A stretch of DNA of 25,663 nucleotides, taken from positions 1 to 25,663 of the IMG/VR virus record IMGVR_UViG_3300042485_000865. One strand, given 5' to 3'. Positions 4,424 to 21,702 of the stretch are shown here, one piece after another. How positions within the stretch are numbered: the first letter of the stretch is position 1; every line of letters starts with the position of its first letter. The stretch comes from a virus. The notes beneath the pieces are model-generated. The model was given only the letters and a program-made list of their open reading frames with translations. It was not told the DNA's origin and did not search any database. A program made the position numbers and the translations under genes.

Positions 4424-7400
4424 TTATAGTACTACCCAACGAGCACCGGAACTAACTGTTACCGCAACACCAGAAGCAACGGTCAATGGACCTGTACTCA
4501 TAGCATTTGAAGTGCTTGGTATTACATATGATGCAGAGATAGTATCAGCATTCAAAATAATACCATTGGTTGCAGACACAACAGAGAATTCACCTGTACC
4601 ACCGGCACCTGAAGGACCAGTTGCACCTGTTGCACCTGTTGGACCTGTAAGACCAGCAATACCTTGGATACCCTGTGCACCAGCAGCACCTGCAGCACCT
4701 GTTGGACCAGCAATACCTTGGATACCCTGTGCACCATCAGCACCTGTAGGACCAGTTGCACCTGCTGTACCATTAGCACCGTCAGTACCTGCAGCACCAG
4801 CAATACCTTGGATACCCTGTGCACCGGCAGCACCTGTAGGACCAGTGGAACCTGTTGCACCTTGTGGACCAACCAACTGAGCAATAACACCAGCAGGCAA
4901 TGTACCAACATTTGACAAGTCGGCATTTGCTTTTCCAGAGACTGTAGTAACTAGAGCAGCAGCAGCAGATTCATCTGATTGTAGTGCAGTTGCGATTTCA
5001 GCAAGTGTATCCAAGGCAGCAGGAGCAGCACCAACTACAGCAGCAATTGCTGTTGATACATTGGCAGCAGTCTGGAACCCTGAATCATTCGAGAATGAAC
5101 TTAGTGCAGTTGGTTTACCTGTCAACGATGCATATGTACCGGCAGTGGCAACAGCAGATAATGTTGCAACATCTGCAGGAGTAAATCCTAGAGCAGACGC
5201 AATATTACCACTTGTCACACTTGCGGCAGAACCAGCAGCACCAGTTGGACCTGTGGCACCAGTTGGACCTGCAACGGTTGAATCAGCACCTGTTGGACCA
5301 GCAATACCTTGGATACCCTGTGCACCAGCAGCACCTGTAGGACCTGTAGGACCAGCAACGCCAGCAGCACCGGCAACGCCATCAACACCTATTGTACCAT
5401 TAGCACCTGCAGCACCAGTTGGACCAGTTGATCCAGTAATACCTTGGATACCCTGTGCACCAGCAGCACCTGTAGGACCTGTAGGACCAGCAACGCCAGC
5501 ATCACCAGTTGCACCTTGGATGCCCTGTGAACCGGTTGGACCAGTTGGACCAGTTGCACCTGTTGGACCGGACATCGCAGCAGCAGTAATTGCAGCAGAG
5601 ACAAACGGTTGTGTGGCAATTGCAACTTCTTCATTTGTTATACCAACTTTCCAGAGACCTGCGGTTTCATCCCAAACAATACGTTGGCGTGCTAGATCGC
5701 CACGGTCAATATCAAGACCAGAGTAACGAGCAGTGACACCAGATCCTTCCTGTCCCTTGTTTAGAGTAATTACATTGTCTTTGATTGATAGGTTAGTTGT
5801 ATTTACTGTAGTTGTTGTACCTGCAACAGTCAATCCACCGGAGATAGTTAGGTTACCAGATACTGTACCATCACCGGCAATTGCCACGATTGGAGCAGTT
5901 AGAGTAACTTGTGCACCAGAAGTAACACGGGTAGTTGAACCTAGACCCTCAGACTGAATCAATACATCAGCATTTGTACCATTTGTTTTTACTGTTGTTG
6001 CAGTTGCGGAATCAAGTATCAACTGACCTGTACCTGTGGTAGCAATACGCATACCTTGGTTTAGATCGGCAGAGAATTGCATAGTGTTCGCAGCTGAAGA
6101 TATTACTGCAACGCCATCAACATACAAAGTGTTTGCATCGATGTGCAATTCTTTGGTGAAAATAGACGCAAACTTATGGTTGATATCTCCAATCTTAGAA
6201 ACACCTGGTACTGCTGGCATAATATCGCCATACACTGTCAAATCTTCAACTGTGAAGTCTGTGGTCGATGTGCCACTAGATTGAGCAGGAGTATATCCTA
6301 GAGCAGTTGCAATTGATCCACTTGTTACATTGGCATCAGAACCTGTTAGACCAGTGGCACCTGTAGGACCTGTAGGACCGGCAACTGTTGAAGCAGCACC
6401 TGTAGCACCAGCAGCACCAGTTGGACCTGTGGCACCTGTAGGACCAGTTGCACCTTGGATACCTTGTGAACCTGTGGCACCTGTTGGACCAGTTGTACCT
6501 TGATCACCTGTAGGACCAGTTGCACCTGCTGTACCTGTAGCACCAGCAGCACCAGTTGGACCTGCAACACCTTGAATACCCTGTGAACCTGTGGCACCTG
6601 TTGCACCGACCAACTGAGCAATAACACCGGCAGGCAATGTTGTTACATTTGATAAATCAATATTTGCCTTACCTGCAACAGTTGTGATCAATGCAGAAAC
6701 ACCGGACTCATCTGCTGCTAATTGGTCTGCAATTTCTTTCAGTGTATTCAATGCACCTGGAGCACCACCGATAAGCAAGGAGATTGCTGTTGATACATTT
6801 TCTGCTGTTTGGAAACCAGAGTCATTGGTGAATGAACTTACCAATGTAGGTTTACCTGTCAATGATGCATATGAGTGAACATGGGTTGTATCAGATTTAC
6901 CTGCTAAACCAGAATTCACATCTGCTTCCAATGCAACTGCTGCATTGTTTACTGTTAGTTTACCACCAGATTCTTTCAAACTTACTGTGCTTACTATGCC
7001 CAATGCAATTTCTTCAGATACACTTAGTGCAACTGAATTCAAGAATTGCAATGAGAACAACACAACTGTTCCTGTCATTGCAGATGATAGATTGATTGTA
7101 CAAGTGTTTGCATCAACAATGGTCATTCCAGCAAGTACTAGAACATGATTAGCATTGTATACAAAGTACGCAAAATTGTTTGTATTGAAATTATGTTCTA
7201 CTGTCCAGGATGAACTTGCAACACCTTGGGAATGTAGATATGATGCTTGTTTGATACCGATTGGTTGCCAGGTGAACCACCCTGAACCATTTATCAATTC
7301 TGTATAGAGGTACGGAATTCCGTCCTTTATTGCTAGTGTGCGTGGTGAAGGATTCGATGGGAAGGACTCATAGTTCGATCCAAAACTTAGATCGCCCCTG

Positions 7401-7438
7401 AGACTTACATCTCCTAAAACTCTAATTTGTTCTGACAT
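4424..7438 (-). CDS. Large collagen-like tail fibre protein (1004 residues)
   Basis: A modular fibre. Residues 1-60 hold an N-terminal fibre segment (PSNPSPRTLAIKDGIPYLY ... GWFTWQPIG). Residues 77-135 hold a beta module (WTVEHNFNTNNFAYFVYN ... NTCTINLSSAMTG). A module of about 110 residues (SYASLTGKPTLVSSF ... LPAGVIAQLVG) occurs twice, near residues 190-275 and again near 760-850. Collagen-like Gly-X-Y tracts (GATGPTG, GIQG) fill roughly residues 275-370, 625-735 and 850-945. Between them is a region with TVNTTNLSIKDNVITLNKGQ and GDLARQRIVWDET, a motif set known from aquatic T4-like phage fibres. The last 35 residues (NAMSTGPLTVASG...GARWVVL) recur at the ends of two other proteins here. 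It probably forms a trimeric rod on the tail or neck. The gene ends 32 bases before a hairpin. Confidence 0.92.
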   Translation of the reverse strand: MSEQIRVLGDVSLRGDLSFGSNYESFPSNPSPRTLAIKDGIPYLYTELINGSGWFTWQPIGIKQASYLHSQGVASSSWTVEHNFNTNNFAYFVYNANHVLVLAGMTIVDANTCTINLSSAMTGTVVLFSLQFLNSVALSVSEEIALGIVSTVSLKESGGKLTVNNAAVALEADVNSGLAGKSDTTHVHSYASLTGKPTLVSSFTNDSGFQTAENVSTAISLLIGGAPGALNTLKEIADQLAADESGVSALITTVAGKANIDLSNVTTLPAGVIAQLVGATGATGSQGIQGVAGPTGAAGATGTAGATGPTGDQGTTGPTGATGSQGIQGATGPTGATGPTGAAGATGAASTVAGPTGPTGATGLTGSDANVTSGSIATALGYTPAQSSGTSTTDFTVEDLTVYGDIMPAVPGVSKIGDINHKFASIFTKELHIDANTLYVDGVAVISSAANTMQFSADLNQGMRIATTGTGQLILDSATATTVKTNGTNADVLIQSEGLGSTTRVTSGAQVTLTAPIVAIAGDGTVSGNLTISGGLTVAGTTTTVNTTNLSIKDNVITLNKGQEGSGVTARYSGLDIDRGDLARQRIVWDETAGLWKVGITNEEVAIATQPFVSAAITAAAMSGPTGATGPTGPTGSQGIQGATGDAGVAGPTGPTGAAGAQGIQGITGSTGPTGAAGANGTIGVDGVAGAAGVAGPTGPTGAAGAQGIQGIAGPTGADSTVAGPTGATGPTGAAGSAASVTSGNIASALGFTPADVATLSAVATAGTYASLTGKPTALSSFSNDSGFQTAANVSTAIAAVVGAAPAALDTLAEIATALQSDESAAAALVTTVSGKANADLSNVGTLPAGVIAQLVGPQGATGSTGPTGAAGAQGIQGIAGAAGTDGANGTAGATGPTGADGAQGIQGIAGPTGAAGAAGAQGIQGIAGLTGPTGATGATGPSGAGGTGEFSVVSATNGIILNADTISASYVIPSTSNAMSTGPLTVASGVAVTVSSGARWVVL

Positions 7439-7456
7439 TGTTTATCCTATGTTTTG

Positions 7457-7663
7457 TTATAATTGATCGCCAATGGGCTTGGCACCAACAAATAAAACCT
7501 GCCCTATCAGGGCTTTGTTTATCAGCATCAATAAATGATACTGGTGAGTAATGAATTCAATTTTATCAGCATCAGTGAAGTCCTCGCTGTCCTTGAATTT
7601 CTGTATATTCGATTGTATTTTCTCAATCCAAGCACAAATGTATGTATTATAATTACTACTCAT
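7457..7663 (-). CDS. Small hypothetical protein (68 residues)
   Basis: I do not recognise a family. The sequence is mostly helical in appearance, with a charged first half (WIEKIQSNIQKFKDSEDFTDADK) and a hydrophobic second half (HLLMLINKALIGQVLFVG). The ATG lies inside the end of the preceding 70-residue gene (8-base overlap) and the stop is 18 bases before the large fibre gene. Tight packing on the same strand supports it being real. A role as a fibre chaperone or baseplate accessory would be a guess. Confidence 0.65.
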   Translation of the reverse strand: MSSNYNTYICAWIEKIQSNIQKFKDSEDFTDADKIEFITHQYHLLMLINKALIGQVLFVGAKPIGDQL

Positions 7664-7868
7664 CTGAATTTCTCACTAATGATTCAGCACGTTCAAAGAA
7701 CTGCTTCATATAAACTATATCACTGTTGTATTGGTTTTTTATAGCAATGTCAAAAAAGTCTGCTGACTCTGCATTTTCCTTGAGTATGTCAAGGCACACC
7801 TCAATCTGAGCGAGGGTTGCATCAAAAGTTGTCAGCGTTTCTAGCCATAGATTTGGCATTTGTTTCAT
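7656..7868 (-). CDS. Small hypothetical protein (70 residues)
   Basis: This acidic, probably all-helical protein (LTTFDATLAQIEVCLDILKE ... FFDIAIKNQYNSDIVYMKQF) matches no family I recognise. It follows the 824-residue fibre gene after a 72-base gap containing a hairpin, and overlaps the next gene by 8 bases. The two small genes form a pair between two giant fibre genes, a position where fibre-assembly helpers are often found. Confidence 0.65.
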   Translation of the reverse strand: MKQMPNLWLETLTTFDATLAQIEVCLDILKENAESADFFDIAIKNQYNSDIVYMKQFFERAESLVRNSDE

Positions 7869-7896
7869 ATTACTCTCACTATCATTAGGTAAGGAT

Positions 7897-7920
7897 AGGG
7901 TGGGATTTTATCCCCACCCT
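7897..7920 (-). terminator. 8-bp hairpin after the coiled-coil fibre gene
   Basis: AGGGTGGG pairs with CCCACCCT around an 8-base A/T-rich loop, 21 bases past the stop of the 824-residue fibre gene. There is no clear U-tract on the minus strand. It resembles the hairpin at 4366-4391 in stem composition and in its place after a large fibre gene. Confidence 0.6.
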
Positions 7921-7940
7921 TCCCATTCAACTATACTAGA

Positions 7941-10415
7941 TTATAGATTTGCCATTGTTACAACAGCAATCTTAACCTTTGCAGACTCAGACAAATGCAC
8001 TGTCAATGTATTGCGATCTGTTTCTTCAACAGATACGATATCATTGCGGTACTTACCACCTGCACGTTCCACTAGAACTGTGAATGTGACAAAGTCAGCA
8101 TCCAAGTTGTGTGCGAAAGTGTGGGTAGTTGCAGCAACGCCTGCCTGGAATGTTGCATTTGCAGCATTGATTGCTGTACGGATAGCAGCATCGCCTGAAA
8201 CACGGGCAGCAGTTTCTGTATCAACACGACCACCAAGTGCAGCATCGGCAGCATTGACAGCAGAAGTCAATGCACTAACGCTATTTGCAACTGCAACTTC
8301 AGCAGCACGGGCAGTAGATGCCTCGGTTGCTAGGTTGGTTGTTAGCAATGACTCAGCAGCACGTGCTGTTGTTTCTTCGGCAGATACTAGACCAGCAGCA
8401 TATGTCTTTGCAGTATTTTCAGCATTTGTAGACTTTGTTGTTGCGTCAGCAGATGCAGTTGCAAGAGCAGCAGTAACAGCAGCAGCACGGTCACTAACTT
8501 CAGTTGCTAGAGCAGCAGCAGTTGTATCACGCTGTGCATCGATTTCATTGATAGCAGCAACAATGGTTGTTTTGTCAACAGTGGTTAGACTTGCAAGTGT
8601 ACCAATCTTACCATTTACTTGACCTTCAACTGTTGTTACACGTGTGTCAAGAGCACTGTCACCAGCAATACGGGCAGCAGTTTCTGTATCAACACGACCA
8701 CCCAATGCGACTTCAGCAGCAACAGCACGGGTAACTTCACCACCTAGATCAGATGCGCCACCTGCAGATGATGCTAGACGGGCAATTTCTTCATTGTCTA
8801 AACGAATGCCTAGAGCAACTTCAGCAGCACGGGCAGTTGTTGCCTCGCTTGATAGGTTTGTTGTAAGAACACCTTCAGCAGCACGGGCAGTTGTGGCCTC
8901 GGACTGAACAGCAGCAGTAAGAACACCTTCAGCAGCAACAGCACGATCATGCTCTGTTGTTAGGTTAGCAGAAGCAGTATTTCCCAATGCTGTGATAGCA
9001 CCGTTGATTGTACCATCTGCATCTTGGAATGCTGTTACGATTTCTGTCAAACTGTCAAGTGCAGCAGGATCGATGTTGCTTAGAACGTTATCAACACGGA
9101 CACCTAGAGCAGACTCAGCAGCACGTGCTGTTGTTGCTTCAGCACTGATAAGACCAGTCAATACAGAGTCAGCAGCGATACGAGCAGCAGATTCTGTATC
9201 AATACGACCACCAAGTGTAGACTCAGCAGAACGAGCAGCAGCAGCTTCTGAACCTAAGTTTGCTGTCAATGTTGAAACAGCAGCAGAGCGAGCAGCCTCT
9301 TCAGCAGCAACACGGGTAGTTAGAACACCATCAGCAGCGATACGAGCAGCAGTTTCTGTATCAACACGACCACCTAGAGCAACTTCAGCAGCACGGGCAG
9401 TTGTTTCTTCGTCGGATAAGTCAGAAGCAATAGCTTGCTCAGCACCCTGTGCACGACTAATCTCATTATTGAGGCTTGATGTCAATGTAGAATCAGCAGC
9501 CTGACGAGCAGATGTTTCAGTTGTAACACGACCACCCAATGCAACTTCAGCAGCACGGGCAGTAGTTGCCTCGCTTGATAGGTTTGTGGTTAGTGTACTT
9601 TCTGCACCAGTTGCACGGGTAATCTCGGCATTTAGGTTAGAAGTAATTGTGTTGTCGTTTGTTGCACGTGTAGCAGCTTCTGTATCAACACGACCACCAA
9701 GTGCTGTATCAGCATTTGTACGATCTGATATTTCTGTTGTAATGCGTGTTCCAAGACCGGACTCAGCAGTACCTGCACGGGTTGTTTCAGCAGTTACACT
9801 AACACCAAGTGCTTCTTCAGCAGCAGTTGCACGTGTTACTTCATTGCTTAGACCGCCAACAGTTGTTGATGATGTGCTTTCGAGAGCAGTTGCACGTGAT
9901 GCAAGAGCAGCCTCTGCAGCAACAGCACGGTTGAACTCAGTTGTAACACGACCACCCAATGCGACTTCAGCAGCACGTGCTGTAGTTGCTTCATCATCAA
10001 CACGAACACCTAGAGCAACATCGGCAGCATCAGAAATTGACTTGTTGCTAGCGATTGTTGTTGCGGTTGTTGTGACGAAGTTAGCATCATCACCGATTGC
10101 AGCGGCTAATTCATTTAGTGTATCTAATAGACCAGGTGCGCCATCGATTAGTGAAGAGATCTGTGCATCTGTGTATGCATTTGCAGTTGATAGAGCAGAA
10201 GCAACATCAGCAGCAATGATGTGTGATACAACTACAACACCACCGGTAGAATTTAGAGTAGAATACTTTAGTTTTTTGTCTGTAGAATTGAACCAAATGC
10301 GTCCTGGACCTACTGGACTTGGATCTGTTGCAAGAATTTCTACGTGTAGATTTTCAATAGCTGCATTAGCAGCTAGTGTAATCCCGTGGAAAATTGGAAA
10401 ATTAGAATCTGACAT
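7941..10415 (-). CDS. Long coiled-coil tail fibre protein (824 residues)
   Basis: Residues 1-60 form an N-terminal head with GPGRIWFNSTDKKLKYSTLN, a motif common in T4-like aquatic phage fibres. A GAPGLLDTLNELAAAIGDD module follows near residue 90, also seen in the 1004-residue fibre. Residues 120-740 are a long series of imperfect 18-residue repeats, such as TARAAEVALGGRVDTETA followed by ARIAADGVLTTRVAAEEA. They are rich in Ala, Glu and Thr with regular hydrophobics, as expected of a trimeric coiled coil. The C-terminal 60 residues (HTFAHNLDADFVTFTVLVE ... NTLTVHLSES) are a beta module related to those at 7045-7210 and in the 106-residue protein. Function as a long rigid fibre is inferred. 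Start is ATG at 10415. Confidence 0.9.
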   Translation of the reverse strand: MSDSNFPIFHGITLAANAAIENLHVEILATDPSPVGPGRIWFNSTDKKLKYSTLNSTGGVVVVSHIIAADVASALSTANAYTDAQISSLIDGAPGLLDTLNELAAAIGDDANFVTTTATTIASNKSISDAADVALGVRVDDEATTARAAEVALGGRVTTEFNRAVAAEAALASRATALESTSSTTVGGLSNEVTRATAAEEALGVSVTAETTRAGTAESGLGTRITTEISDRTNADTALGGRVDTEAATRATNDNTITSNLNAEITRATGAESTLTTNLSSEATTARAAEVALGGRVTTETSARQAADSTLTSSLNNEISRAQGAEQAIASDLSDEETTARAAEVALGGRVDTETAARIAADGVLTTRVAAEEAARSAAVSTLTANLGSEAAAARSAESTLGGRIDTESAARIAADSVLTGLISAEATTARAAESALGVRVDNVLSNIDPAALDSLTEIVTAFQDADGTINGAITALGNTASANLTTEHDRAVAAEGVLTAAVQSEATTARAAEGVLTTNLSSEATTARAAEVALGIRLDNEEIARLASSAGGASDLGGEVTRAVAAEVALGGRVDTETAARIAGDSALDTRVTTVEGQVNGKIGTLASLTTVDKTTIVAAINEIDAQRDTTAAALATEVSDRAAAVTAALATASADATTKSTNAENTAKTYAAGLVSAEETTARAAESLLTTNLATEASTARAAEVAVANSVSALTSAVNAADAALGGRVDTETAARVSGDAAIRTAINAANATFQAGVAATTHTFAHNLDADFVTFTVLVERAGGKYRNDIVSVEETDRNTLTVHLSESAKVKIAVVTMANL

Positions 10416-10468
10416 TTGTAATTCCTTATTATAGTTGTAAATTATTGCATCCTAGACAGCCATGACAA

Positions 10469-10476
10469 AATTTATA
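10469..10476 (-). promoter_or_regulatory. Late-promoter-like box (TATAAATT)
   Basis: The minus strand reads TATAAATT, one base from the T4 late consensus, 54 bases upstream of the coiled-coil fibre gene in a non-coding gap of about 80 bases. Confidence 0.4.
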
Positions 10477-10494
10477 ATATAATAACTGCTCAAC

Positions 10495-10815
10495 CTACAG
10501 AATTTCAATATCTGGAGTACCCGAGACCTCAAAGATTACATCAACAAATCCCTTCATTGCAGTTGTGAGAACCACATTGAAAGTATTCTTGTTGACATTA
10601 TGTATAAGTGCGTGAAACTGATTACCATTCTCGTCACGAAGTGTTGCGGTGAACCTATCTGTATTCTGATTGTGGGGTATTTCCCAGATCAGTGACAAAT
10701 TCTTTATTGCATACCTCTTATATACCGGAGGTTGCGTCTGGGATATCAGTACCTTCGGACTTGTGGGTGCGATAGTTACTAATGATGCCCTGGCATTACT
10801 TACTCGTGCTTTCAT
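10495..10815 (-). CDS. Small structural-type protein with a fibre beta module (106 residues)
   Basis: The first 45 residues are basic and Ser/Thr-rich. The second half (LSLIWEIPHNQNTDRFTATLRD ... NTFNVVLTTAMKGFVDVIF) matches the pattern of the N-terminal beta module in the 1004-residue fibre: a Trp, an HN-N-T turn, a D-NG loop, an NT-V strand, then AM-G-V. It is therefore likely a virion or fibre-associated protein rather than an enzyme. It follows the 116-residue gene after a 25-base gap. I know no named family. Confidence 0.75.
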   Translation of the reverse strand: MKARVSNARASLVTIAPTSPKVLISQTQPPVYKRYAIKNLSLIWEIPHNQNTDRFTATLRDENGNQFHALIHNVNKNTFNVVLTTAMKGFVDVIFEVSGTPDIEIL

Positions 10816-10840
10816 AATATAGAATTCATAAAAGGATTAG

Positions 10841-11191
10841 TTAGACTATAGCAACTCGTGTGATTTCCGGTGTTAGTATAACTAGACCCTCAATTACTCT
10901 AACTTTTACATTATTTAGTGCATCCACGATTTCAACATCGTATAGGTAACGACCCGGAGGAATATCCGAAGAATCATGTCCATCCAGTACCAATGTAATT
11001 TCACCCAGCACTGGTGAACCAACAATAGAGCAATCAAACTCATAGTATAATGATGAGTTGAAACTTTTTCTGAACTGTGAATAGATATCAAACCCAGTCA
11101 GATCAATGACAGATCCATCATCATTCTGGAGTACAAGTTCAGTGTGAAAATCTGAACCCTGATCCACGTATAAGTTTATAATGCCAGCCAC
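10841..11191 (-). CDS. Phage structural protein, BppU-like beta domain (116 residues)
   Basis: This 116-residue protein has a pattern common in tailed phages: INLYVDQGSDFHTELVLQND, then DLTGFDIYSQFRKS, GEITLVLDGHDSS, and PPGRYLYDVEIVDA ... RVIEGLVILTPEITR. Related beta-sandwich domains are found in baseplate and fibre-base proteins, and short stand-alone versions are common in T4-like cyanophages. The start is GTG at 11191 with AGGGGAT upstream. A TATAAATA box lies 20 bases upstream, so the gene probably begins a late transcript. Confidence 0.8.
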   Translation of the reverse strand: MAGIINLYVDQGSDFHTELVLQNDDGSVIDLTGFDIYSQFRKSFNSSLYYEFDCSIVGSPVLGEITLVLDGHDSSDIPPGRYLYDVEIVDALNNVKVRVIEGLVILTPEITRVAIV

Positions 11192-11210
11192 TATGATCCC
11201 CTTTAGTGTA

Positions 11211-11218
11211 TATTTATA
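11211..11218 (-). promoter_or_regulatory. T4-type late promoter box (TATAAATA)
   Basis: The exact TATAAATA on the minus strand lies in the 71-base gap before the 116-residue structural gene. The box ends 20 bases before the GTG start, leaving room for a short leader with the AGGGGAT ribosome-binding site. Confidence 0.65.
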
Positions 11219-11262
11219 ATAGTAAAACTCTCAGGGTTATTAGTACCTGTGCTTTGTATTTA

Positions 11263-11517
11263 TTACCAGAACAATATTGCTAAAACTCCTGCGATAGTGC
11301 CAAGTGCCCAGAATACTAGATCCATACGACTACCGGTACCAAAGTCATACCATACTCTGTTCTGGTCATATCTCTGATAGATTTCTCTCATCAACCCTGT
11401 CATGGCACTAATGATAGCTGCCATCCAGAGTGATGTGATGAATGAGAATAGTATGACTAGAACTAGAGCAACAATGAAATGTGCCGGTTGGTCTATGAAC
11501 TCTTTGTTAATGGTCAT
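11263..11517 (-). CDS. Small membrane protein (84 residues), unknown role
   Basis: Two to three hydrophobic segments are visible. Residues 12-45 form a long stretch that could be two helices (FIVALVLVILFSFITSLWMA, then AIISAMTGL). Residues 67-84 form a C-terminal helix ending at FW. Between them is a charged loop (REIYQRYDQNRVWYDFGTGS). The ATG overlaps the stop of the S74 fibre gene as ATGA, implying translational coupling. Size and topology allow a holin or lysis-related role, but no diagnostic motif is present and no lysis enzyme is visible nearby. A role in membrane attachment or superinfection exclusion is equally possible. Confidence 0.75.
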   Translation of the reverse strand: MTINKEFIDQPAHFIVALVLVILFSFITSLWMAAIISAMTGLMREIYQRYDQNRVWYDFGTGSRMDLVFWALGTIAGVLAILFW

Positions 11518-12674
11518 GCTTCTAGTGCTGCAATGCGTACTGCTTGTGCATCTACAATTGCTTTAAGTTCTTGGATGGCGGCGGTGAGAGTAGCAACCAA
11601 GAATGATGTGTCAACGCCTTGGTACTTAGGATTACCATCTTCATCTACAGCATCTTTTTCACCATTTACGCACTCAGGCACAATTTCAGCAAGCTCATGA
11701 GCAATAAAGCCTTGACCATCAGAACCGTCAACGTTCCATTTGTAAGTGACAGGTTTGAGTTGAGCTATTTTATCTAATGCACCCATCATTGGTGCGATGG
11801 TGTTCTTTAAGCGATAGTCAGAAGAAGTGTTGTAGCCAACAGTAGTCGTACTGTTTTGAGATATTGTTCCAATAGTTGTGCTGTTATACCCAAACTCAGA
11901 AAAATTGCTTCCTGAATTACCGTTTTCGTGATGCACCAGCAAAGAACCATTAGCGGCTCTAGCAATAATGGCGTTTGCAGTTGACGTAACAATAGTTGAA
12001 CCAGTAGTTCCCACCAGCAAGTTACCGCTGGAGTCGAGCGTCATTGCTTGGGTGAATGTGATTGCGTTACCTGCTGTGCCAGAGGGGGCGTTGTACCAAT
12101 AGTGAACCCCTGACTGCTGACTGTATCGGCTGGCAGCCACCGAGCTTCCAACGTAACGCCATGCCGCAGAACCGTAATAAGCGTTGGTAACAAGTTCAGT
12201 TTGATTACTAGCACCCATCAAGGCAGTGGGCTGACCAGATGCAATTTGAATTGCTTTATATCCAGCATCCCAAGCACTAGGAGTAACCCCCAAGCCGAGG
12301 TTGCCTGCGGAGTCTATCCTTGCTCTCTCACTGCCTCCAGTGTAGAAGGTCATTGGTAGGTAAGTGCCTGTACCGAGTATGCCAGAAATTAAATCAACTG
12401 ATGTAGAATTTGCTCTTAACTGCCCATAAGATGAGTTAGTTGGGTCAGAAGCATTTGCTACTACAACACCAGCAAAGTTACTTGTTCCGTTAGGAATAAA
12501 AAATGGAGTTGTTGCTCCGTTTACTGTACTTGATTGAAAAGAAACCCTGTTTGCATGAGTCGCATTGCTGAAGTCACCAGTGATGCGGTTGCCTGTTCCA
12601 GTGAAGGTTAAGTTTGTTGCTATAGTCTCAGCAGGTGTAGTAACCCCACCAAGTCCGTCCAATAAAATTGACAT
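11514..12674 (-). CDS. Tail fibre/spike with C-terminal peptidase S74 chaperone (386 residues)
   Basis: The C-terminal 100 residues, from SDYRLKNTIAPM at about residue 285, are an intramolecular chaperone of endosialidase (peptidase S74) domain. They keep the self-cleavage S-D-x-R-L-K motif, a PVTYKWNVDGSDGQGFIAHE core, and a C-terminal helix (ELKAIVDAQAVRIAALEA). In known proteins this domain trimerises the fibre and cuts itself off. The N-terminal part is a beta-rich fibre with the GSERARIDSAGNLGLGVTP motif common in S74 fibres. The mature fibre would be about residues 1-284. A TATAAATA box lies 28 bases upstream of the ATG. The stop overlaps the membrane-protein start (ATGA). Confidence 0.92.
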   Translation of the reverse strand: MSILLDGLGGVTTPAETIATNLTFTGTGNRITGDFSNATHANRVSFQSSTVNGATTPFFIPNGTSNFAGVVVANASDPTNSSYGQLRANSTSVDLISGILGTGTYLPMTFYTGGSERARIDSAGNLGLGVTPSAWDAGYKAIQIASGQPTALMGASNQTELVTNAYYGSAAWRYVGSSVAASRYSQQSGVHYWYNAPSGTAGNAITFTQAMTLDSSGNLLVGTTGSTIVTSTANAIIARAANGSLLVHHENGNSGSNFSEFGYNSTTIGTISQNSTTTVGYNTSSDYRLKNTIAPMMGALDKIAQLKPVTYKWNVDGSDGQGFIAHELAEIVPECVNGEKDAVDEDGNPKYQGVDTSFLVATLTAAIQELKAIVDAQAVRIAALEA

Positions 12675-12701
12675 ATTTTGTTTTCCTTTTGTTTACAGTA
12701 C

Positions 12702-12709
12702 TATTTATA
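12702..12709 (-). promoter_or_regulatory. T4-type late promoter box (TATAAATA)
   Basis: The exact late-box sequence on the minus strand lies in the gap of about 78 bases before the S74 fibre gene, 28 bases upstream of its ATG, with an AGGAAAA purine tract in between. Confidence 0.65.
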
Positions 12710-12752
12710 CTTTCGGTATCTGTATATTACTTTGGATACTTTGCTTTGATTG

Positions 12753-12983
12753 TCATACTACCAATGCTTTTAGTTCATCCAGCGTTGTAGCCGTATCTGC
12801 TAACTTAGTAACGTCACGGAGTCTTTGCTTTTCAGCGACGATGGCAGTGGTATCTGTACCTGATTCTAATGCACGTTGGAAAGCAACATCCTGAGCAAGC
12901 ATTAGTGGAGTGCGTTCTTGGCGTAGGCGGTCTTTTGTGATTACTTGTGCTTTAGTGAAATCAATGATTATGCCCATGTCCAT
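12753..12983 (-). CDS. Small fibre-associated protein (76 residues)
   Basis: This helical, charged protein has the pattern DFTKAQVITKDRLRQERTPL ... DVAFQRALESGTDTTAIVAE ... LRDVT ... TLDELKAL, often encoded beside phage tail-fibre genes. It resembles short tail-fibre-assembly or tail-chaperone products (an AFQRALE...KQ.LRD core is typical). It overlaps the upstream 63-residue gene by 16 bases, and the two probably act together. Function is inferred from context only. Confidence 0.75.
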   Translation of the reverse strand: MDMGIIIDFTKAQVITKDRLRQERTPLMLAQDVAFQRALESGTDTTAIVAEKQRLRDVTKLADTATTLDELKALVV

Positions 12984-13159
12984 GCTCCTCTGAATGTGCG
13001 GTCTGTTGGCACTGTATCGGTGTCTACAATCTCAAACGGAGTATTTGCCGGTACATCTTTGGCAGCGAGTTCCTCGATAGTGTGATCTTGTAGGTATTCT
13101 GGTGATGGGACTAGAACTGCTACGCCGCCATCAGGTGTTGGGTATATTATTCTTTTCAT
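12968..13159 (-). CDS. Small fibre-associated protein (63 residues)
   Basis: The recognisable protein starts MKRIIYPTPDGGVAVLVPSP and continues EELAAKDVPANTPFEIVD ... DRTFRGAWTW, a family seen next to fibre-assembly genes in many phages. I therefore chose the ATG at 13159, with AAAAGGAT upstream. An earlier in-frame ATG at 13207 would add 16 unrelated residues and overlap the preceding gene. It has no transmembrane or catalytic features. The end overlaps the 76-residue gene by 16 bases. Confidence 0.8.
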   Translation of the reverse strand: MKRIIYPTPDGGVAVLVPSPEYLQDHTIEELAAKDVPANTPFEIVDTDTVPTDRTFRGAWTWA

Positions 13160-13173
13160 TTTTATTAATCCTT

Positions 13174-13968
13174 TTAGCGGAAGACTTGGACAGAGATGAT
13201 TGAGCAATCCACATTGGTGTTGTTGTTAAAGACACCAACTGTTTTAATGATGCAATTTGTGGTGTTGTAAGCAACTGCAGCCGTAACAATGGGGCGGCTA
13301 TTATCACCTGTTATATTTTCATTAATACCAGAAACAGAATAATTCGCATCAACCATAGCAATCGTAAAGTTGACCGTGTAATTACCCGTGCTGTTATCCG
13401 TAATACTACTAACATTCCCGCTTGCACGAATAGCAACAGTGCCAGTGCCGTTGAAGTTCACCCAAGCACGACATCCGTATGCAATGGCAGCAGAACCGTA
13501 ACCAGAGTTGAAGGCAAAGCGTCCATCGGCATTGATGTCACAAAGTGCGGTAGCCGTTCCATTTCCTGTTGTTTGCCAAAATCGAAACGATGTAACGGCG
13601 GCAGAGTACAGATTATAGAAATCAGTTTCTGCAGCGCCATTTAGGTAGTTCCATTGGGCTTTAAAACCACCGCCGTTAGTATTAGGGTGCGTCTGACTAT
13701 TTTCAACGCCAGCTATTAAACCGCCATTCACATGAAGTTTAGTTGCAGGACTAGCAGTCCCAATCCCCACATTACCACTTGCATCTTTTACCAATCCACC
13801 AGCGCCTACATTCAGTGTGTCTGTAGTTGCATCACCCAGTATAGTGTTACCAGTTACAGCCAAGTTATTACTCAATGTAGCATTATTCGATGTATCAACA
13901 GTGAGGAACTCATTACCATTCTGCTGGATACCTGAGTTTAATACTCCTGCTCTAAGTGTTATTGTCAT
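13174..13968 (-). CDS. Tail fibre-like protein (264 residues)
   Basis: The N-terminus (MTITLRAGVLNSGIQQNGNE, then TLSNNLAVTGNTILGDATTD) and the KDASGNVGIGTASPATKLHV motif are typical of beta-structured phage fibres. The C-terminal half has a recurring fibre module with YGCRAWVNFNGTGTVAIRAS and NYTVNFTIAMVDANYSVSG, which in other phages forms a receptor-binding tip. No S74 or collagen segment is present. It is followed after 14 bases by two small fibre-assembly-type genes. Attachment role is inferred. Confidence 0.88.
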   Translation of the reverse strand: MTITLRAGVLNSGIQQNGNEFLTVDTSNNATLSNNLAVTGNTILGDATTDTLNVGAGGLVKDASGNVGIGTASPATKLHVNGGLIAGVENSQTHPNTNGGGFKAQWNYLNGAAETDFYNLYSAAVTSFRFWQTTGNGTATALCDINADGRFAFNSGYGSAAIAYGCRAWVNFNGTGTVAIRASGNVSSITDNSTGNYTVNFTIAMVDANYSVSGINENITGDNSRPIVTAAVAYNTTNCIIKTVGVFNNNTNVDCSIISVQVFR

Positions 13969-15172: not shown

Positions 15173-15484
15173 TTACAACGAATCAATTAGTGCCTTGGCA
15201 TCTGCGGAAGTTGCAAATCCTAGTTTGAATAGAAAACAGTTTGCATCTTCCATGAACTCATACTGATATTGTTGAGTCACAGTACCATCCGTATCCTTTA
15301 CTTCAACTACCTTATGTGTTTCATCTGTAATTCCGGCATCTGTGCCTTCTAACTTTGTTGTGGCAATCCAACCATCCTTGCCATCATAAATGCTCTGGAG
15401 GTGTGCCTTGAGTTCTACGGGGTACATCTCTTTCAAATTCAGTACATCACCCATAGAGTTTATGTATTTTGGAAATCCGATCAT
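15173..15484 (-). CDS. Hypothetical protein immediately downstream of the DGR reverse transcriptase (103 residues)
   Basis: The acidic protein begins MIGFPKYINSMGDVLNLKEM and has DGKDGWIATTKLEGTDAGITDET in the middle and FMEDANCFLFKLGFATSADA near the end. I know no named family. It is not like the basic four-helix Avd accessory proteins of DGRs. The ATG lies 4 bases after the RT stop, and the last RT codons supply its GGAG ribosome-binding site, so it is translated from the same message as the RT. It may be a structural or fibre-assembly protein; a DGR accessory role cannot be excluded. Confidence 0.75.
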   Translation of the reverse strand: MIGFPKYINSMGDVLNLKEMYPVELKAHLQSIYDGKDGWIATTKLEGTDAGITDETHKVVEVKDTDGTVTQQYQYEFMEDANCFLFKLGFATSADAKALIDSL

Positions 15485-15488
15485 TTTG

Positions 15489-16487
15489 TTATACTCCTTT
15501 CATTGAAATTGTAACTAATCTTAGACTTAGGTTATGCGTATTTGCCCATTTCAACCAACCACTTGTTGATGCAATGGATGATTGATATTGTTGTATATTT
15601 ATAATACCTTTCAGTAATCGATATGGAAGATTTCGCATCCTTTTGATCACTCGTTTGGCAGTGCTCTTTCTCAATAATATTTTCTCCGGAAAGTGCCTAT
15701 ACCCCAAAAAATCCACTCCCTGTGATACTGGAAATACTGATGACTTTGAAAATACCAATCGAAGACTTACTCCAATATAGTGTTCTATCCATGTTTTCAA
15801 TGACTGTAATTTCTTTTTACAATTATCGAACATGATAAAATCATCACAATACCTTACATAAGATTGCACCTTATGCACATGCTTTATTTTTGTATCCAAT
15901 TCATTCATATACAAATTACCGAACCACTGACTTGTATAGTTACCGATTGGAGTATTTTTCCCACCATCAAAGGATCTGATGATATTTTCAACAAGGGATA
16001 AAGTCCTTGCACATTTTATTTTTCTAGATACTATCGAAAACAATACATCATGATCAATGGACGGGTAGAATTTACGAATATCACACTTCAGGCAATATTT
16101 ATATTTTCTAACATGTTGCATTGTCTTTCTACTTGCATCATGCATTCCTTTTCCAACTCTACATGCATACGAATCATGTATCATCAAATTATCCCAAATT
16201 GGAATGAGTATTTGCAGTAATGCATGTTGTACAATTCGATCTGGGAAAAATGGTAAAATATAGATTTCCCTACGTTTGGGTTCATGGATTGTTTTAGTCT
16301 TATACTCCGAAGTTGTAAAACTCTCAGTGCATAGTAACTTCTGCAACGCAATCAGATTCCCATTGATATCCTTTTCAAATTGTCTAACCGCAAATCTTGA
16401 TGCTTTACCTCTCCTTGCCCGTTTATAGGCAAGATACAAATTTTCTGGATCTATGATCTTATCCCAAAGATTTCCGTGGCGTCTCAC
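15489..16487 (-). CDS. DGR reverse transcriptase (332 residues)
   Basis: The enzyme would reverse-transcribe the TR RNA with errors at adenines to make cDNA that replaces VR. RT motifs are in order: a basic N-terminus; IYILPFFPDRIVQHALL (residues 75-91); HDSYACRVGKGMHDA (104-118); CLKCDIRKFYPSIDHDVL with catalytic D136; the DGR-type motif 4 GNYTSQWFGN (182-191); SYVRYCDDFIMF with catalytic D215 and D216; and VDFLGYRHFPEK. About 330 residues is usual for DGR RTs, with no maturase or endonuclease domain. The start is GTG at 16487, the first start after an in-frame TGA; its ribosome-binding site is weak. The GTG overlaps the stop of the frame running through TR (GTGA), which suggests possible coupling. 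It lies 156 bases after TR. Confidence 0.95.
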   Translation of the reverse strand: MRRHGNLWDKIIDPENLYLAYKRARRGKASRFAVRQFEKDINGNLIALQKLLCTESFTTSEYKTKTIHEPKRREIYILPFFPDRIVQHALLQILIPIWDNLMIHDSYACRVGKGMHDASRKTMQHVRKYKYCLKCDIRKFYPSIDHDVLFSIVSRKIKCARTLSLVENIIRSFDGGKNTPIGNYTSQWFGNLYMNELDTKIKHVHKVQSYVRYCDDFIMFDNCKKKLQSLKTWIEHYIGVSLRLVFSKSSVFPVSQGVDFLGYRHFPEKILLRKSTAKRVIKRMRNLPYRLLKGIINIQQYQSSIASTSGWLKWANTHNLSLRLVTISMKGV

Positions 16488-16643
16488 AATATAATTTTCT
16501 CAAGGACTTTCACTTTCGTTACTAACCCCAGAGAAACAGTCGCTGTGTATTTTGCTGTATATGATTTTACATATATCAACAAGGTAAAAATGTCAGCCAG
16601 AGGACAGTTTAGCTCCGCATTTCCGACAATAAAACTCTCTGTA
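16488..16643 (-). ncRNA. DGR spacer RNA between TR and RT
   Basis: These 156 bases separate the 3' end of TR from the RT start. In the BPP-1 phage DGR, a spacer of about 140 bases here is needed for RT binding and cDNA priming. Position and length match. Its fold was not computed. Confidence 0.6.
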
Positions 16644-16760
16644 TCCGTAGCTCCTCGACCCGAATTATTCGAATTCAGATTGAGTGGGGAATTATTCCAA
16701 TTAGAAGACTGGGAACCGCAATTCACCCCATTATTCCAATTACCCCTGAGAATGCCACTA
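16644..16760 (-). repeat. DGR template repeat (TR)
   Basis: These 117 bases align without gaps to VR, at an offset of 175 bases. Read in the frame matching VR, TR gives GNWNNGVNCGSQSSNWNN and then SPLNLNSNNSGRGATD. The many AAT (Asn) codons are the preferred DGR template codon because A-mutagenesis at them can reach many amino acids without stops. TR carries 31 adenines on its coding strand, of which 21 differ in VR. Identity ends sharply at 16760 and near 16644. Confidence 0.95.
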
Positions 16761-16796
16761 CAATACATTTTTACCTTTCCGCCTTTCAACGAAATC

Positions 16797-17990
16797 TTAG
16801 AACCTATTGGTGGCTGGCTCCGCAGCCCCCCGACCCGAAGCAGCCGAATTCAGAGCGAGCGGGGAATGAGTCCAATAAAAAGACCGGGAACCGCAAAGCA
16901 CCCCATTAATCCAATCACCCCCGAGAAGGCCACGATAAGGAGCATCATAGTGTTGACCGCCAATACCTATATCATTTGCATCATAGGCATTTGCCCAAGC
17001 AGCAGCAGTATAAAGACCACCCATATCTCTGGTCCATTGCCACATAACACCACATGCATCTTCCATACCTTCATTTGAAATCATACGTCTACCGGCAGTA
17101 TCCGAGTGACCAGTTGTGGTAACTGCATCTACAGAACCCACGATATTGGTACTCTGATTGGCACCAATGGATGCCGCAACAAACTCTAACTGACTGATCG
17201 ATTTCATACCTTGACGTGCAAACCATTGCTCGAATTTGTATGTATGGAATGCAGGTGTTGATACGCCATCTGCAATTGTACCACCATTCACAGACACCAA
17301 TGTTGTGCCAGATACCGATGGTAAGTAAATATCAACCCACATATTGCAGGATGATAGGAAAGTACCTTCCTGACGTGCAATGGAACGATTGAATCTATCC
17401 CAGACAGTTCTAGGTAAAATATCACCCAATACATATCCAGTCAATGTATGACCGGCAATTGTACCAACTGAAACGCAGAGTGTATGGAAACCACCGATCT
17501 TGCGTGATGTCAATGCAGAGTAACCTGCAGGGAATGTTGAGTTGTTTGATAGAATGATACCACCAACACTTAATGCATACACATAGAAATCCTTGCCTGC
17601 ACGGTTTGATGCTGTGGCATACTGCGAATCATCCCAGTTACCGGCAGTATTGATATTCTTGGTAGTTGCAGCAATGGTTACCTGAATACTATCGACAACC
17701 ACAATAACCTGTGGCACATTCAATGTTGTGACAGATCCAGTGAATAATGCTGACTGTTCCAAGAATGTTGTTGATGCTGTTGGCAATCCAGTACAATTAC
17801 TTAGATTACCACTGATCGGTGTACCAAGTGCCGGAGCAACTAGAGTCTTATTGGTAAGTGTATCAGTTGTTGCCTTACCAACCAGTGTATCTGTTGCAAC
17901 TGGTAGAGTCAATGTATTGCTACCTGCAGTTGCCGGTGCTGCTATTGTAATACTTCCTGAAATATCTCCTGCGATGACCACGCTTGACAT
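16797..17990 (-). CDS. DGR-diversified fibre-tip protein with FGE/C-type-lectin-like domain (397 residues)
   Basis: Residues 1-75 are a phage-fibre segment (TDTLTNKTLVAPALGTP ... NLSNCTGLP). A middle beta region follows, to about residue 190. Residues 190-397 form a formylglycine-generating-enzyme-like C-type lectin fold, recognisable by TPAFHTYKFEQWFARQGMKS, MISNEGMEDACGVMWQWTRD, and the terminal GDWINGVLCGSRSFYW ... SPLALNS ... SGRGA. DGR target proteins such as Mtd of BPP-1 have this fold with the variable residues on its surface. The VR covers about residues 352-391; only six residues (PATNRF) follow it before the stop. The ATG overlaps the upstream stop as TAATG. Binding to a variable host receptor is inferred from family knowledge. 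Confidence 0.93.
   Translation of the reverse strand: MSSVVIAGDISGSITIAAPATAGSNTLTLPVATDTLVGKATTDTLTNKTLVAPALGTPISGNLSNCTGLPTASTTFLEQSALFTGSVTTLNVPQVIVVVDSIQVTIAATTKNINTAGNWDDSQYATASNRAGKDFYVYALSVGGIILSNNSTFPAGYSALTSRKIGGFHTLCVSVGTIAGHTLTGYVLGDILPRTVWDRFNRSIARQEGTFLSSCNMWVDIYLPSVSGTTLVSVNGGTIADGVSTPAFHTYKFEQWFARQGMKSISQLEFVAASIGANQSTNIVGSVDAVTTTGHSDTAGRRMISNEGMEDACGVMWQWTRDMGGLYTAAAWANAYDANDIGIGGQHYDAPYRGLLGGDWINGVLCGSRSFYWTHSPLALNSAASGRGAAEPATNRF
16812..16827 (-). promoter_or_regulatory. Hairpin at the 3' end of VR (possible DGR homing signal)
   Basis: The minus strand reads GGCTG-CGGAGC-CAGCC, a perfect 5-bp G/C stem with a 6-base loop, spanning the VR boundary. The equivalent TR position cannot form it. 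In BPP-1, an inverted repeat just past VR aids retrohoming. Confidence 0.55.
16819..16935 (-). repeat. DGR variable repeat (VR)
   Basis: These 117 bases at the 3' end of the target gene match TR except at 22 positions. Twenty-one changes are at TR adenines (coding strand) and one is a C-to-T giving Ser to Phe. The non-adenine positions are otherwise identical. The G/C-rich 3' end (GGGGGGCTGCGGA on the coding strand) is the expected place of the initiation-of-mutagenic-homing element. Confidence 0.95.
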
Positions 17991-18984: not shown

Positions 18985-20346
18985 TTAGGTCAATGAGAAA
19001 CCAGCGGCAGCAGGACCACTTCTAGCAGTACCAACACCGGTAACATCAGTACTAACAACACCAGTATTTGATACTAAGTTAGTCATTGATACAGCAACAG
19101 AACCATTATGACCATACCCAAAGATTGCCTTATCTGTGCCATAACCAGCAGCAGCAGATAGATATCTAGCAGTACCAACACCAGTAACATCTGTACTGAC
19201 AACTCCAGTATTGCTCACTAGGTTGGTCATTGATACATTGACGCCAGTAGAACCATATCCAAAGATTGCCTTGTCTGTGCCATATCCAGCAGCAGCAAGA
19301 GCCCGTCTAGCAGTACCAACACCGGTAACATCAGTAGAGACAACACCAGTATTTGATACCAGGTTGGTCATTGATACATAAGCACCAGTATGACCATATC
19401 CAAAGATTGCCTTGTCTGTACCATAACTAGCAGCAGCAAGTTCATATCTAGCAGTGCCAACACCGGTAACATCAGTGGATACAACACCAGTATTACTTAC
19501 TAAGGTGGTCATTGATACAGCAACAGTAGTGGCACCATATCCAAAGATTGCCTTGTCAGTGCCATAACCAGCAGCAGCAAGAACATATCTAGCAGTACCA
19601 ACACCTGTGGTATCTGTTGCAACTACTCCAGTGTTGCTTACTAGATTGGTTATTGATACAGCGGCACCATTATAACCATACCCAAAGATTGCCTTATCAG
19701 TGCCATATCCAGCAGCAGCAAGAACATATCTAGCAGTACCAACACCAGTAACATCAGTACTGACAACACCAGTATTACTCACTAGGTTAGTCATTGATAC
19801 ATTAGCACCAGTGACACCATATCCAAAGATTGCCTTCTGTGTACCTGGACCCTTTGCTCTATGCAATGGATTCATCAGTACCATATCAGTGCCATCATAG
19901 ATCACATCTGATATCCAGTTTGTTTGGGATACCCAGGAGTTGATGAATACTTTCACTCCCTGTGCATTGTAATACTTGAAATTCTTTACACCCAATCCAG
20001 ATATGTTCAGAGTTACCGGAGTGGTACTCAATAATGCAGGAGTTGTGTGCAGTGTTACAGTGAATCTCTGTCCACTTGTATATGCAACTGCAGCAGGACT
20101 TGGAGTCAGTGTATATGCATTGCCTGTACCGGAAGTGGTGAATGCAATTGCAGATTGTGCCTGAGTGATTTGTGCTGTCTCTGAAGTACCGGAACTGAGA
20201 GTAAGAGTACCGGTAATATCTGCACCACTTGCAGTGATTGCAATAATTGGATTGGGTCCTGCCAATAATGATAGGTTACCCGAGTTATCGGAGGTGGAAG
20301 CAATACCACCTCCACCTGTTGTGATTGCCTGTATAGTTGATGTCAT
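18985..20346 (-). CDS. Fibre protein with six kelch-like repeats, copy A (453 residues)
   Basis: The N-terminal part, about 165 residues, holds fibre modules (AYTLTPSPAAVAYTSGQRFT, LNISGLGVKNFKYYNAQGVK, DVIYDGTDMVLMN). Six tandem repeats of about 47 residues follow. Each starts KAIFGYG, has a variable stretch of 5-8 residues, then a VSMTNLVSNTGVVSTDVTGV core, GTAR, a variable 3-residue spot and LAAAGYGTD. The length and Gly-rich aromatic pattern suggest a six-bladed beta-propeller of kelch type. The protein ends GFSLT like its neighbour, copy B, from which it is separated by 12 bases. A receptor- or glycan-binding role is inferred. The variation sits at two loops per repeat. Confidence 0.9.
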   Translation of the reverse strand: MTSTIQAITTGGGGIASTSDNSGNLSLLAGPNPIIAITASGADITGTLTLSSGTSETAQITQAQSAIAFTTSGTGNAYTLTPSPAAVAYTSGQRFTVTLHTTPALLSTTPVTLNISGLGVKNFKYYNAQGVKVFINSWVSQTNWISDVIYDGTDMVLMNPLHRAKGPGTQKAIFGYGVTGANVSMTNLVSNTGVVSTDVTGVGTARYVLAAAGYGTDKAIFGYGYNGAAVSITNLVSNTGVVATDTTGVGTARYVLAAAGYGTDKAIFGYGATTVAVSMTTLVSNTGVVSTDVTGVGTARYELAAASYGTDKAIFGYGHTGAYVSMTNLVSNTGVVSTDVTGVGTARRALAAAGYGTDKAIFGYGSTGVNVSMTNLVSNTGVVSTDVTGVGTARYLSAAAGYGTDKAIFGYGHNGSVAVSMTNLVSNTGVVSTDVTGVGTARSGPAAAGFSLT

Positions 20347-21190
20347 AGTAGTCTTGGATTATGTGAGTGAGAAACCAGCAGCGCTGGTGTAGTAATGGGT
20401 AGTACCAACACCGGTAACATCTGTACTGACAACGCCAGTATTTGATACTAGGTTAGTCATCGATCCACCACCACCAAATCCAAAAATTGCCTTGTCTGCA
20501 CCATAACTAGCAGCAGCAACAGCACTTTTAGTAGTACCAACACCGGTAACATCAGTACTAACAACACCAGTATTTGATACTAGGTTGGTCATTGATAAAT
20601 TGGCACCATTATAACCATACCCAAAGATTGCCTTGTCTGTGCCATATCCAGCGGCAGCAAGACTATATCTACCAGTACCAACACCGGTAACATCAGTACT
20701 AACAACACCGGTATTTGATACTAGGTTAGTCATTGATACATAACTAGGAGTATAACCATACCCAAAGATTGCCTTGTCTGTGCCATACCCGGCGGCAGCA
20801 GAACCACTTCTACTAGTACCAACACCGGTAACATCAGTACTAACAACACCAGTATTGCTCACTAGGTTGGTCATTGACAAAACAGAACCACTATCACCAT
20901 ACCCAAAGATTGCCTTGTCTGTGCCATATCCAGATGCGGATGGATATGCTCTACCAGTACCAACACCGGTAACATCAGTACTGACAACACCAGTATTGCT
21001 CACTAGGTTGGTAATTGATGTATATCCAGTACTATAACCATACCCAAAGATTGCCTTGTCTGTACCATAACCGGCGGCCGCAAGACCACGTCTAGCAGTA
21101 CCAACACCGGTGACATCAGTGGAGACAACACCGGTATTGCTCACTAGGTTAGTGATTGATACGTTAACAGAACCAGTATAACCATACCCA
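18990..21190. repeat. Twelve ~141-base coding repeats in two adjacent genes
   Basis: Six in-frame repeats per gene share a core reading ccaacaccggtaacatcagt then tgacaacaccagtatt on the plus strand, broken by short divergent stretches. The spacing is about 47 codons. The two arrays are separated by the N-terminal part of copy A. Confidence 0.85.
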
Positions 21191-21702
21191 AAGATTGCCT
21201 TCTGTGTACTCAATGTGCCAGAAGCACGACCAATCACATTCATCAGTACCATATCAGTGCCATCATAGATCACATCTGATATCCAGTTTGTCTGTGCCGA
21301 CCAACTATCAATAAACACTTTACTGCCCTGTGCATTGTAATACTTGAAATTCTTTGCTCCCAATCCCGATATGTTCAGGGTTGCAGAACCACTTGGAGTA
21401 GCATTCAAAGTAATATTGAATCTCTGTCCAGCAGCATATGCAGTCAATGCAGGGGTAGGAGTCAGTGTATATGCTGAACTTGTACCACCAGTTGTGAATG
21501 CAGTGTATGTTTGGTTTTGACTGGTTGCAGTTGATGCAACAGGGGCACCACCCACAGATAATACACCGGTAACAGCAGCACCGGCATTTGTTATGGCAAC
21601 AATTGTGGTTGCACCGGAAAGTAATGATAGGTTACCGGATGCATCGGCAGTGTAAACTAATGCACCGCTGGGTCCAGTTGTTGCTGCGATTGTTGATGCC
21701 AT
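20359..21702 (-). CDS. Fibre protein with six kelch-like repeats, copy B (447 residues)
   Basis: This is a paralogue of the neighbouring 453-residue protein: the same N-terminal modules (AYTLTPTPALTAYAAGQRFN, DVIYDGTDMVLMN), six repeats starting KAIFGYG and the same GFSLT end. The last repeat is shortened (KAIFGFGGGGSMTN). Variable stretches after GYG include YTGSVNVS, YSTGYTS, DSGSVLS, YTPSYVS and YNGANLS. The invariant core is nearly identical at DNA level between repeats and between the two genes, suggesting recent duplication or gene conversion. A TATAAATA box lies 44 bases upstream of the ATG. Propeller fold is inferred. Confidence 0.9.
   Translation of the reverse strand: MASTIAATTGPSGALVYTADASGNLSLLSGATTIVAITNAGAAVTGVLSVGGAPVASTATSQNQTYTAFTTGGTSSAYTLTPTPALTAYAAGQRFNITLNATPSGSATLNISGLGAKNFKYYNAQGSKVFIDSWSAQTNWISDVIYDGTDMVLMNVIGRASGTLSTQKAIFGYGYTGSVNVSITNLVSNTGVVSTDVTGVGTARRGLAAAGYGTDKAIFGYGYSTGYTSITNLVSNTGVVSTDVTGVGTGRAYPSASGYGTDKAIFGYGDSGSVLSMTNLVSNTGVVSTDVTGVGTSRSGSAAAGYGTDKAIFGYGYTPSYVSMTNLVSNTGVVSTDVTGVGTGRYSLAAAGYGTDKAIFGYGYNGANLSMTNLVSNTGVVSTDVTGVGTTKSAVAAASYGADKAIFGFGGGGSMTNLVSNTGVVSTDVTGVGTTHYYTSAAGFSLT

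Follow-up and report, generated by a model that had tools for sequence, protein, structure and literature searches.

The diversity-generating retroelement (DGR) of phage BPP-1, arranged as mtd/avd/TR/brt in a 42-kb genome, is the best-studied of its kind, and there Avd is essential and a stem-loop on the side of the variable repeat (VR) is required for full activity (PMC12875486). Related elements are known from the archaeal virus ANMV-1, where an Mtd-like target (AdtA), a DGR reverse transcriptase (RT) and a close pair of VR and template repeat (TR) lie near fibre genes and an Avd is depicted by Paul et al. (2015; PMC4372165), as well as from the metagenomic phage DGR clades 1, 4, and 6, which are broadly active and whose C-terminal VRs diversify tail proteins, the main text of that study naming no T4-like host (Roux et al., 2021; PMC8144416). 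DGRs have also been reported in lytic phages (PMC7981956).

The locus described here lies in a stretch of 25,663 nt, the IMG/VR record IMGVR_UViG_3300042485_000865, hereafter the window. It shares with BPP-1 a homologous RT (35.5% identity), a homologous Mtd target, a VR at the 3' end of the target gene, adenine mutagenesis and the order TR-spacer-RT, but differs from it in having neither avd between VR and TR nor a detected VR-side stem-loop, in the N-terminus of its fibre protein and in belonging to a T4-like myovirus. The closest annotated record is vir525 (Caudoviricetes sp., Methanosarcinales virus, BK063673), with an RT 56% identical and an Mtd-like target 49% identical over about 203 aa, the same target-TR-RT order, the same spacer RNA family and no Avd found; unlike the window, vir525 has a gene for a 97-aa predicted OB-fold protein behind its RT and gives no T4-type gp15 match. 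As for ANMV-1, its RT is 38% identical, it has a gene of the OB-fold type, contrary to the window, and neither of the two Avd models used here matches in it. The type of DGR is already known, and what is new is that it runs without a recognisable copy of Avd.

Layout of the element

Open reading frames and repeat comparison place the target gene with VR, TR and RT one after the other on the minus strand (Table 1), and the element is confirmed as a DGR. An earlier note, made from the letters of the window, had proposed this classic order on one strand, and all of its parts are present; its description of the DGR as complete is right as regards RT, TR, VR and target, though not as regards Avd, for which no gene was found. 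The interval 16797-16960 that it assigned to VR does contain VR but is slightly too wide, the part matching TR being shorter and the target ORF ending 17 nt beyond it.

Table 1. Features of the element, by position in the window; the last row gives loci in other contigs.
Feature	Position	Strand	Evidence and remarks
DGR target	16797..17990	-	397-aa Mtd-like tail-fibre/receptor-binding protein; Pfam mtd_2nd, PDB Mtd, BLASTP
VR, final codons of target	16814..16938	-	Repeat match to TR; alleles vary at TR-A in L002 and L003
G/C-rich, IMH-like 3' terminus of VR (approximate extent)	16814..16838	-	Differences from TR fixed in three alleles
TR	16639..16763	-	Same sequence in L002 and L003; 33 adenines; 11 mutable codons, all AAT (Asn)
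IMH*-like 3' terminus of TR (approximate extent)	16639..16663	-	Similar A-to-G offsets in relatives
Structured spacer RNA between TR and RT	16488..16628	-	Covariance model R1, 105.8 bits (window itself in model); covariation
Covarying spacer helix	16497..16535 (arms 16535-16525 / 16507-16497)	-	Position from model alignment
DGR RT	15489..16487	-	332 aa, GTG start; RVT_1, phrog_1423, BPP-1 bRT 8ub7, tree
97-aa family, example loci	L007:7001-7300, L013:7002-7295, L098:8986-9279, L102:3607-3903		79 further loci

Adenine-specific variation of VR

VR and TR are 125-nt copies, 80% identical and offset by 175 nt, which cease to match both upstream and downstream of this tract. TR adenines carry 22 of the 25 mismatches between them (hypergeometric p=1.9e-13), which is the TR/VR signature of a DGR.

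The expectation that variation would be confined to the VR sites facing TR adenines was borne out among three assembled contigs, standing in for read mapping: the window and the IMG/VR contigs L002 and L003, which come from other samples and, VR apart, share ~99.9% identity with the window. Leaving aside a swapped fibre region described below, the window differs outside VR from L002 at 5 of 4746 nt and from L003 at 8 of 7776 nt, and the TR of both is identical to its own. Within the 125 sites of VR, there are 18 differences between the window and L002 (17 at TR-A), 17 between the window and L003 (16) and 15 between L002 and L003 (15), hence 48 of 50 pairwise differences at TR-A sites, with p about 1e-10 for each pair. 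Regarding the core of the repeat, changed cells amount to 46/72 at TR-A against 1/174 at non-A. Such adenine-confined differences between alleles with an invariant TR indicate that the element was recently active in nature and, with 14% of sites differing between VR alleles against 0.1% in the flanks, diversification cannot predate the split of the contigs. A fourth contig, L018, ends 10 nt into VR, as expected if assembly failed at a hypervariable site.

In the repeat alignment, the 3' ends of VR and TR differ in the manner of an IMH/IMH* pair, the putative IMH and IMH* being distinguished at repeat positions 108, 111, 115, 120 and 121, identically in the window, L002 and L003; similar A-to-G offsets at the 3' end of TR recur in relatives. 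Five TR-A sites preceding the IMH are identically changed in all three alleles, which was counted against the best explanation. Besides, all three VR alleles carry G at two TR-A sites within the variable tract, 16885 and 16860 (TR positions 53 and 78); one of these changes is silent (CCA to CCG) and recurs in L004 and L009. This shared G may reflect bias, common ancestry or a TR polymorphism.

The mutable AAT codons of TR cannot yield a stop, and the theoretical repertoire from the 11 Asn-coded positions is about 3e13 proteins. A search of the window, L002, L003, L018, L099, L100 and L101 revealed no second VR belonging to this TR.

Reverse transcriptase and target protein

The RT matches RVT_1 (Pfam, 2.5e-16) and phrog_1423 (2e-111), and among solved structures its closest match is the BPP-1 bRT (8ub7, 1.6e-52), compared with 2.9e-22 for a group II RT. 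Both motifs read earlier from the translation were recovered, namely IGNYTSQW, which fits [IVL]GxxxSQ, and the YCDD active site. Clustering with retrons was not seen: in a maximum-likelihood tree holding two retron-type RTs as the non-DGR comparison and no group II introns, the RT groups with phage DGR RTs, apart from the retron-type ones. As regards group II introns, the PDB scores prefer bRT over group II.

The target is homologous to Mtd, the tropism determinant of BPP-1, as indicated by matches to Pfam mtd_2nd (PF21916; 3.8e-15, 56.6 bits, cut-off 24.6), to PDB Mtd structures (2.8e-17) and to BPP-1 Mtd itself, with 30% identity over 271 columns in an alignment starting at residue 131 (BLASTP); this homology extends into the VR part. 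As to the N-terminal beta-prism of Mtd, the first 100 or so residues instead resemble a fibre N-terminus common to hundreds of other fibre loci, and the protein is thus a chimera of a generic fibre base and an Mtd-type receptor-binding tip. The formylglycine-generating-enzyme part of the ending formerly proposed for the target was not recovered, no FGE-sulfatase model matching an otherwise Mtd-like protein; its C-type-lectin part is predicted from homology to Mtd, the AlphaFold2 model having reached a pLDDT of 29, on which the variable residues could not be placed.

Spacer RNA between TR and RT

The spacer is conserved among relatives, and a helix within it shows double changes in 7 of 10 pairs. 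Over the whole structure, 35 double-change cells were counted compared with 12.9 in shuffles, counts that related sequences inflate, and the structure scores far above slid versions of itself. Outside the sequences that built covariance model R1, matches were obtained in vir525 (3e-12) and L016 (7.5e-7). The spacer of L003 carries a difference that creates a helix pair, unpaired in the window. Single-sequence folding gave no excess stability (z=-0.84), so that it is covariation that supports the structure, and no family was found in Rfam. By comparison with BPP-1, this RNA is probably the counterpart of Sp, the spacer recruiting the RT.

Host phage, relatives and neighbouring fibre genes

Downstream of the cluster lie gp15-like (3e-74), gp14-like (4e-79) and gp13-like (5e-39) genes and a terminase of the gp17 type, the nearest named gp15/gp13 relatives being T4-like cyanophages and phages of Pelagibacter, Methylophilales, Stenotrophomonas and Caulobacter, at ≤48% identity. 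These matches support a divergent T4-like myovirus as the source virus; of the placement between baseplate and neck genes put forward earlier, the neck side is evident, whereas the baseplate side was not clearly seen.

Beyond the sister contigs, relatives comprise 14 RTs, together with vir525 and ANMV-1. A-biased VR/TR pairs in the target-TR-RT layout occur in 11 of the 14 and in vir525; as exceptions, the VR of L006 is truncated, L005 begins in the TR region, the match in L014 is a contig-end repeat and L016 has no clean pair. In the maximum-likelihood tree, the window RT groups with those of L004 and L005 (100/100), inside a larger clade with vir525. The other genes tested in L005 are not of the T4 type, and the DGR module has thus probably moved between phage types; for the same reason, a T4-like identity of L004-L006 was rejected. 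Among the matches listed (about half of 158), no DGR-bearing phage record is recognisably T4-like by name, and among the titles and abstract beginnings listed by a full-text literature search there is no account of such an element in a T4-like phage.

The window holds further fibre-like ORFs, one (4424-7438) encoding a 1004-aa collagen-like protein (GPTGPTG) and another (7941-10415) an 824-aa protein with TTARAAEVALGGRV-type repeats. Within ORF 13174-13968, L002 and L003 carry, in place of the segment 13183-13832, a sequence that differs from it and is partly related to it (in L002 371 nt long); fibre genes thus vary here by recombination as well as through the DGR. Two adjacent paralogues (18985-20346 and 20359-21702) consist of repeats of about 47 aa (TDKAIFGYG...SNTGVVSTDVTGVGTAR), coded by 141-nt tandem repeats, the first having no Pfam or PHROG match. 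In sister contig L018 (G017), positions 6706-13131 hold an open frame (about 2146 aa) that includes the protein cut at the right edge of the window (phrog_358, unknown function).

Avd and a candidate alternative accessory

PF22296 and phrog_3206, both of which recover the BPP-1 Avd, gave no match in the window, the sister contigs, the relatives, the circular vir525 or ANMV-1, a search in which the window is a genome fragment and which divergent Avds may escape. PF05635 had been considered as an Avd model and was dropped, as the BPP-1 Avd matches PF22296 instead. The Avd model is also without a match in several other DGR phages, and a divergent Avd could therefore be present here too. Between VR and TR, no perfect stem of at least 6 bp was found, and weaker stems may be present. 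Directly behind the RT, ORF 15173-15484 encodes a 103-aa protein of the type MxGFPKxINxxxD, similar ORFs recurring among the fibre genes of DGR relatives; for this recurrence and for want of a family match, it was set aside as a candidate accessory.

In all 11 of the 11 relatives outside the window's branch, as well as in vir525 and ANMV-1, the gene for a 97-aa protein adjoins the RT. This family has no Pfam match and a weak PHROG match only; its model (pLDDT 83) is OB-like in arrangement and matches SSB and PriB weakly, the best structure matches (Z 7.3, Foldseek E 0.03) reflecting a common arrangement only. Used as bait, the family retrieved 88 loci, 9 of them previously known through their RT; a DGR-type RT is present in 86, and the RT match ends less than 300 nt upstream in 69. 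In a control, the family was found in 0 of 79 fibre loci. An Avd match was obtained in 0 of 49 records with the family compared with 4 of 11 DGR phages without it. The 97-aa family is a candidate DGR accessory, alternative to Avd. The window, its sister contigs and the window's branch yielded no member. It is conceivable, if rather less than an even bet, that the window belongs to an Avd-free DGR lineage where the OB-fold protein replaces Avd in handling RNA/cDNA, and that the window's branch lost this gene and may use a protein encoded elsewhere, e.g. the T4-type single-stranded-DNA-binding protein.

Proposed mechanism and alternative explanations

The anatomy of the element, the allelic diversity confined to adenine sites while TR stays invariant, the homology of RT and target and the covarying spacer RNA are matters of observation, and the element is almost certainly a functional DGR that sits in the tail-fibre region of its host virus, a divergent T4-like myovirus, and redraws an Mtd-like fibre tip. 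An RNA spanning TR and the structured spacer would be transcribed; as in BPP-1, the RT would be primed from the spacer, copy TR and misread its adenines. The mutated cDNA would then replace VR, guided by the difference between IMH and IMH*, with the outcome that the 11 Asn-coded C-terminal positions of the Mtd-like receptor-binding protein would be re-drawn, and the resulting VR variants may alter host attachment.

That VR diversity would stem from ordinary recombination between tail-fibre alleles, with no reverse transcription involved, draws on the swapped segment in the adjoining fibre gene among the same contigs, where fibre recombination does occur; it is very improbable, since alleles exchanged in this way have no reason to follow a template 175 nt away, as 48 of the 50 pairwise VR differences do. 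An RT of the retron, group II intron or defence type, lying by chance beside a repeat, would agree with the NCBIfam and PADLOC matches to group II and DRT models, but every NCBIfam score falls below its cut-off (best 131 vs 300 bits), the BPP-1 bRT comes ahead of the group II RT by 30 orders of magnitude and both the IGNYTSQ motif and the tree position apart from the two retron-type RTs speak against it, which makes this coincidence scarcely credible.

A decaying DGR, recently active and now unable to retrohome without Avd and stem-loop, its VR alleles being relics, deserves somewhat more weight, as neither Avd nor an OB-fold partner was found in the sequence examined and no VR-side stem-loop was detected. 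Against such decay, RT and target are intact, the contrast between VR alleles and flanks dates diversification to the split of the contigs or later, the change in the L003 spacer makes a helix pair that is unpaired in the window and Avd is equally undetected in the complete circular genome of vir525; decay is accordingly judged unlikely, and a functional DGR is retained as the explanation.

Meaning for T4-like phages

T4-like phages rank with the most abundant viruses of aquatic environments. Here, the same phage was found with three different receptor-binding tips in three near-identical contigs, and the element offers a ready test of a large lytic-type phage exploring hosts by programmed mutation. 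While Avd is essential in the best-studied DGR, the element of the window diversifies without a recognisable Avd nearby, and its sister lineages carry a DGR-linked family that has no name in Pfam.
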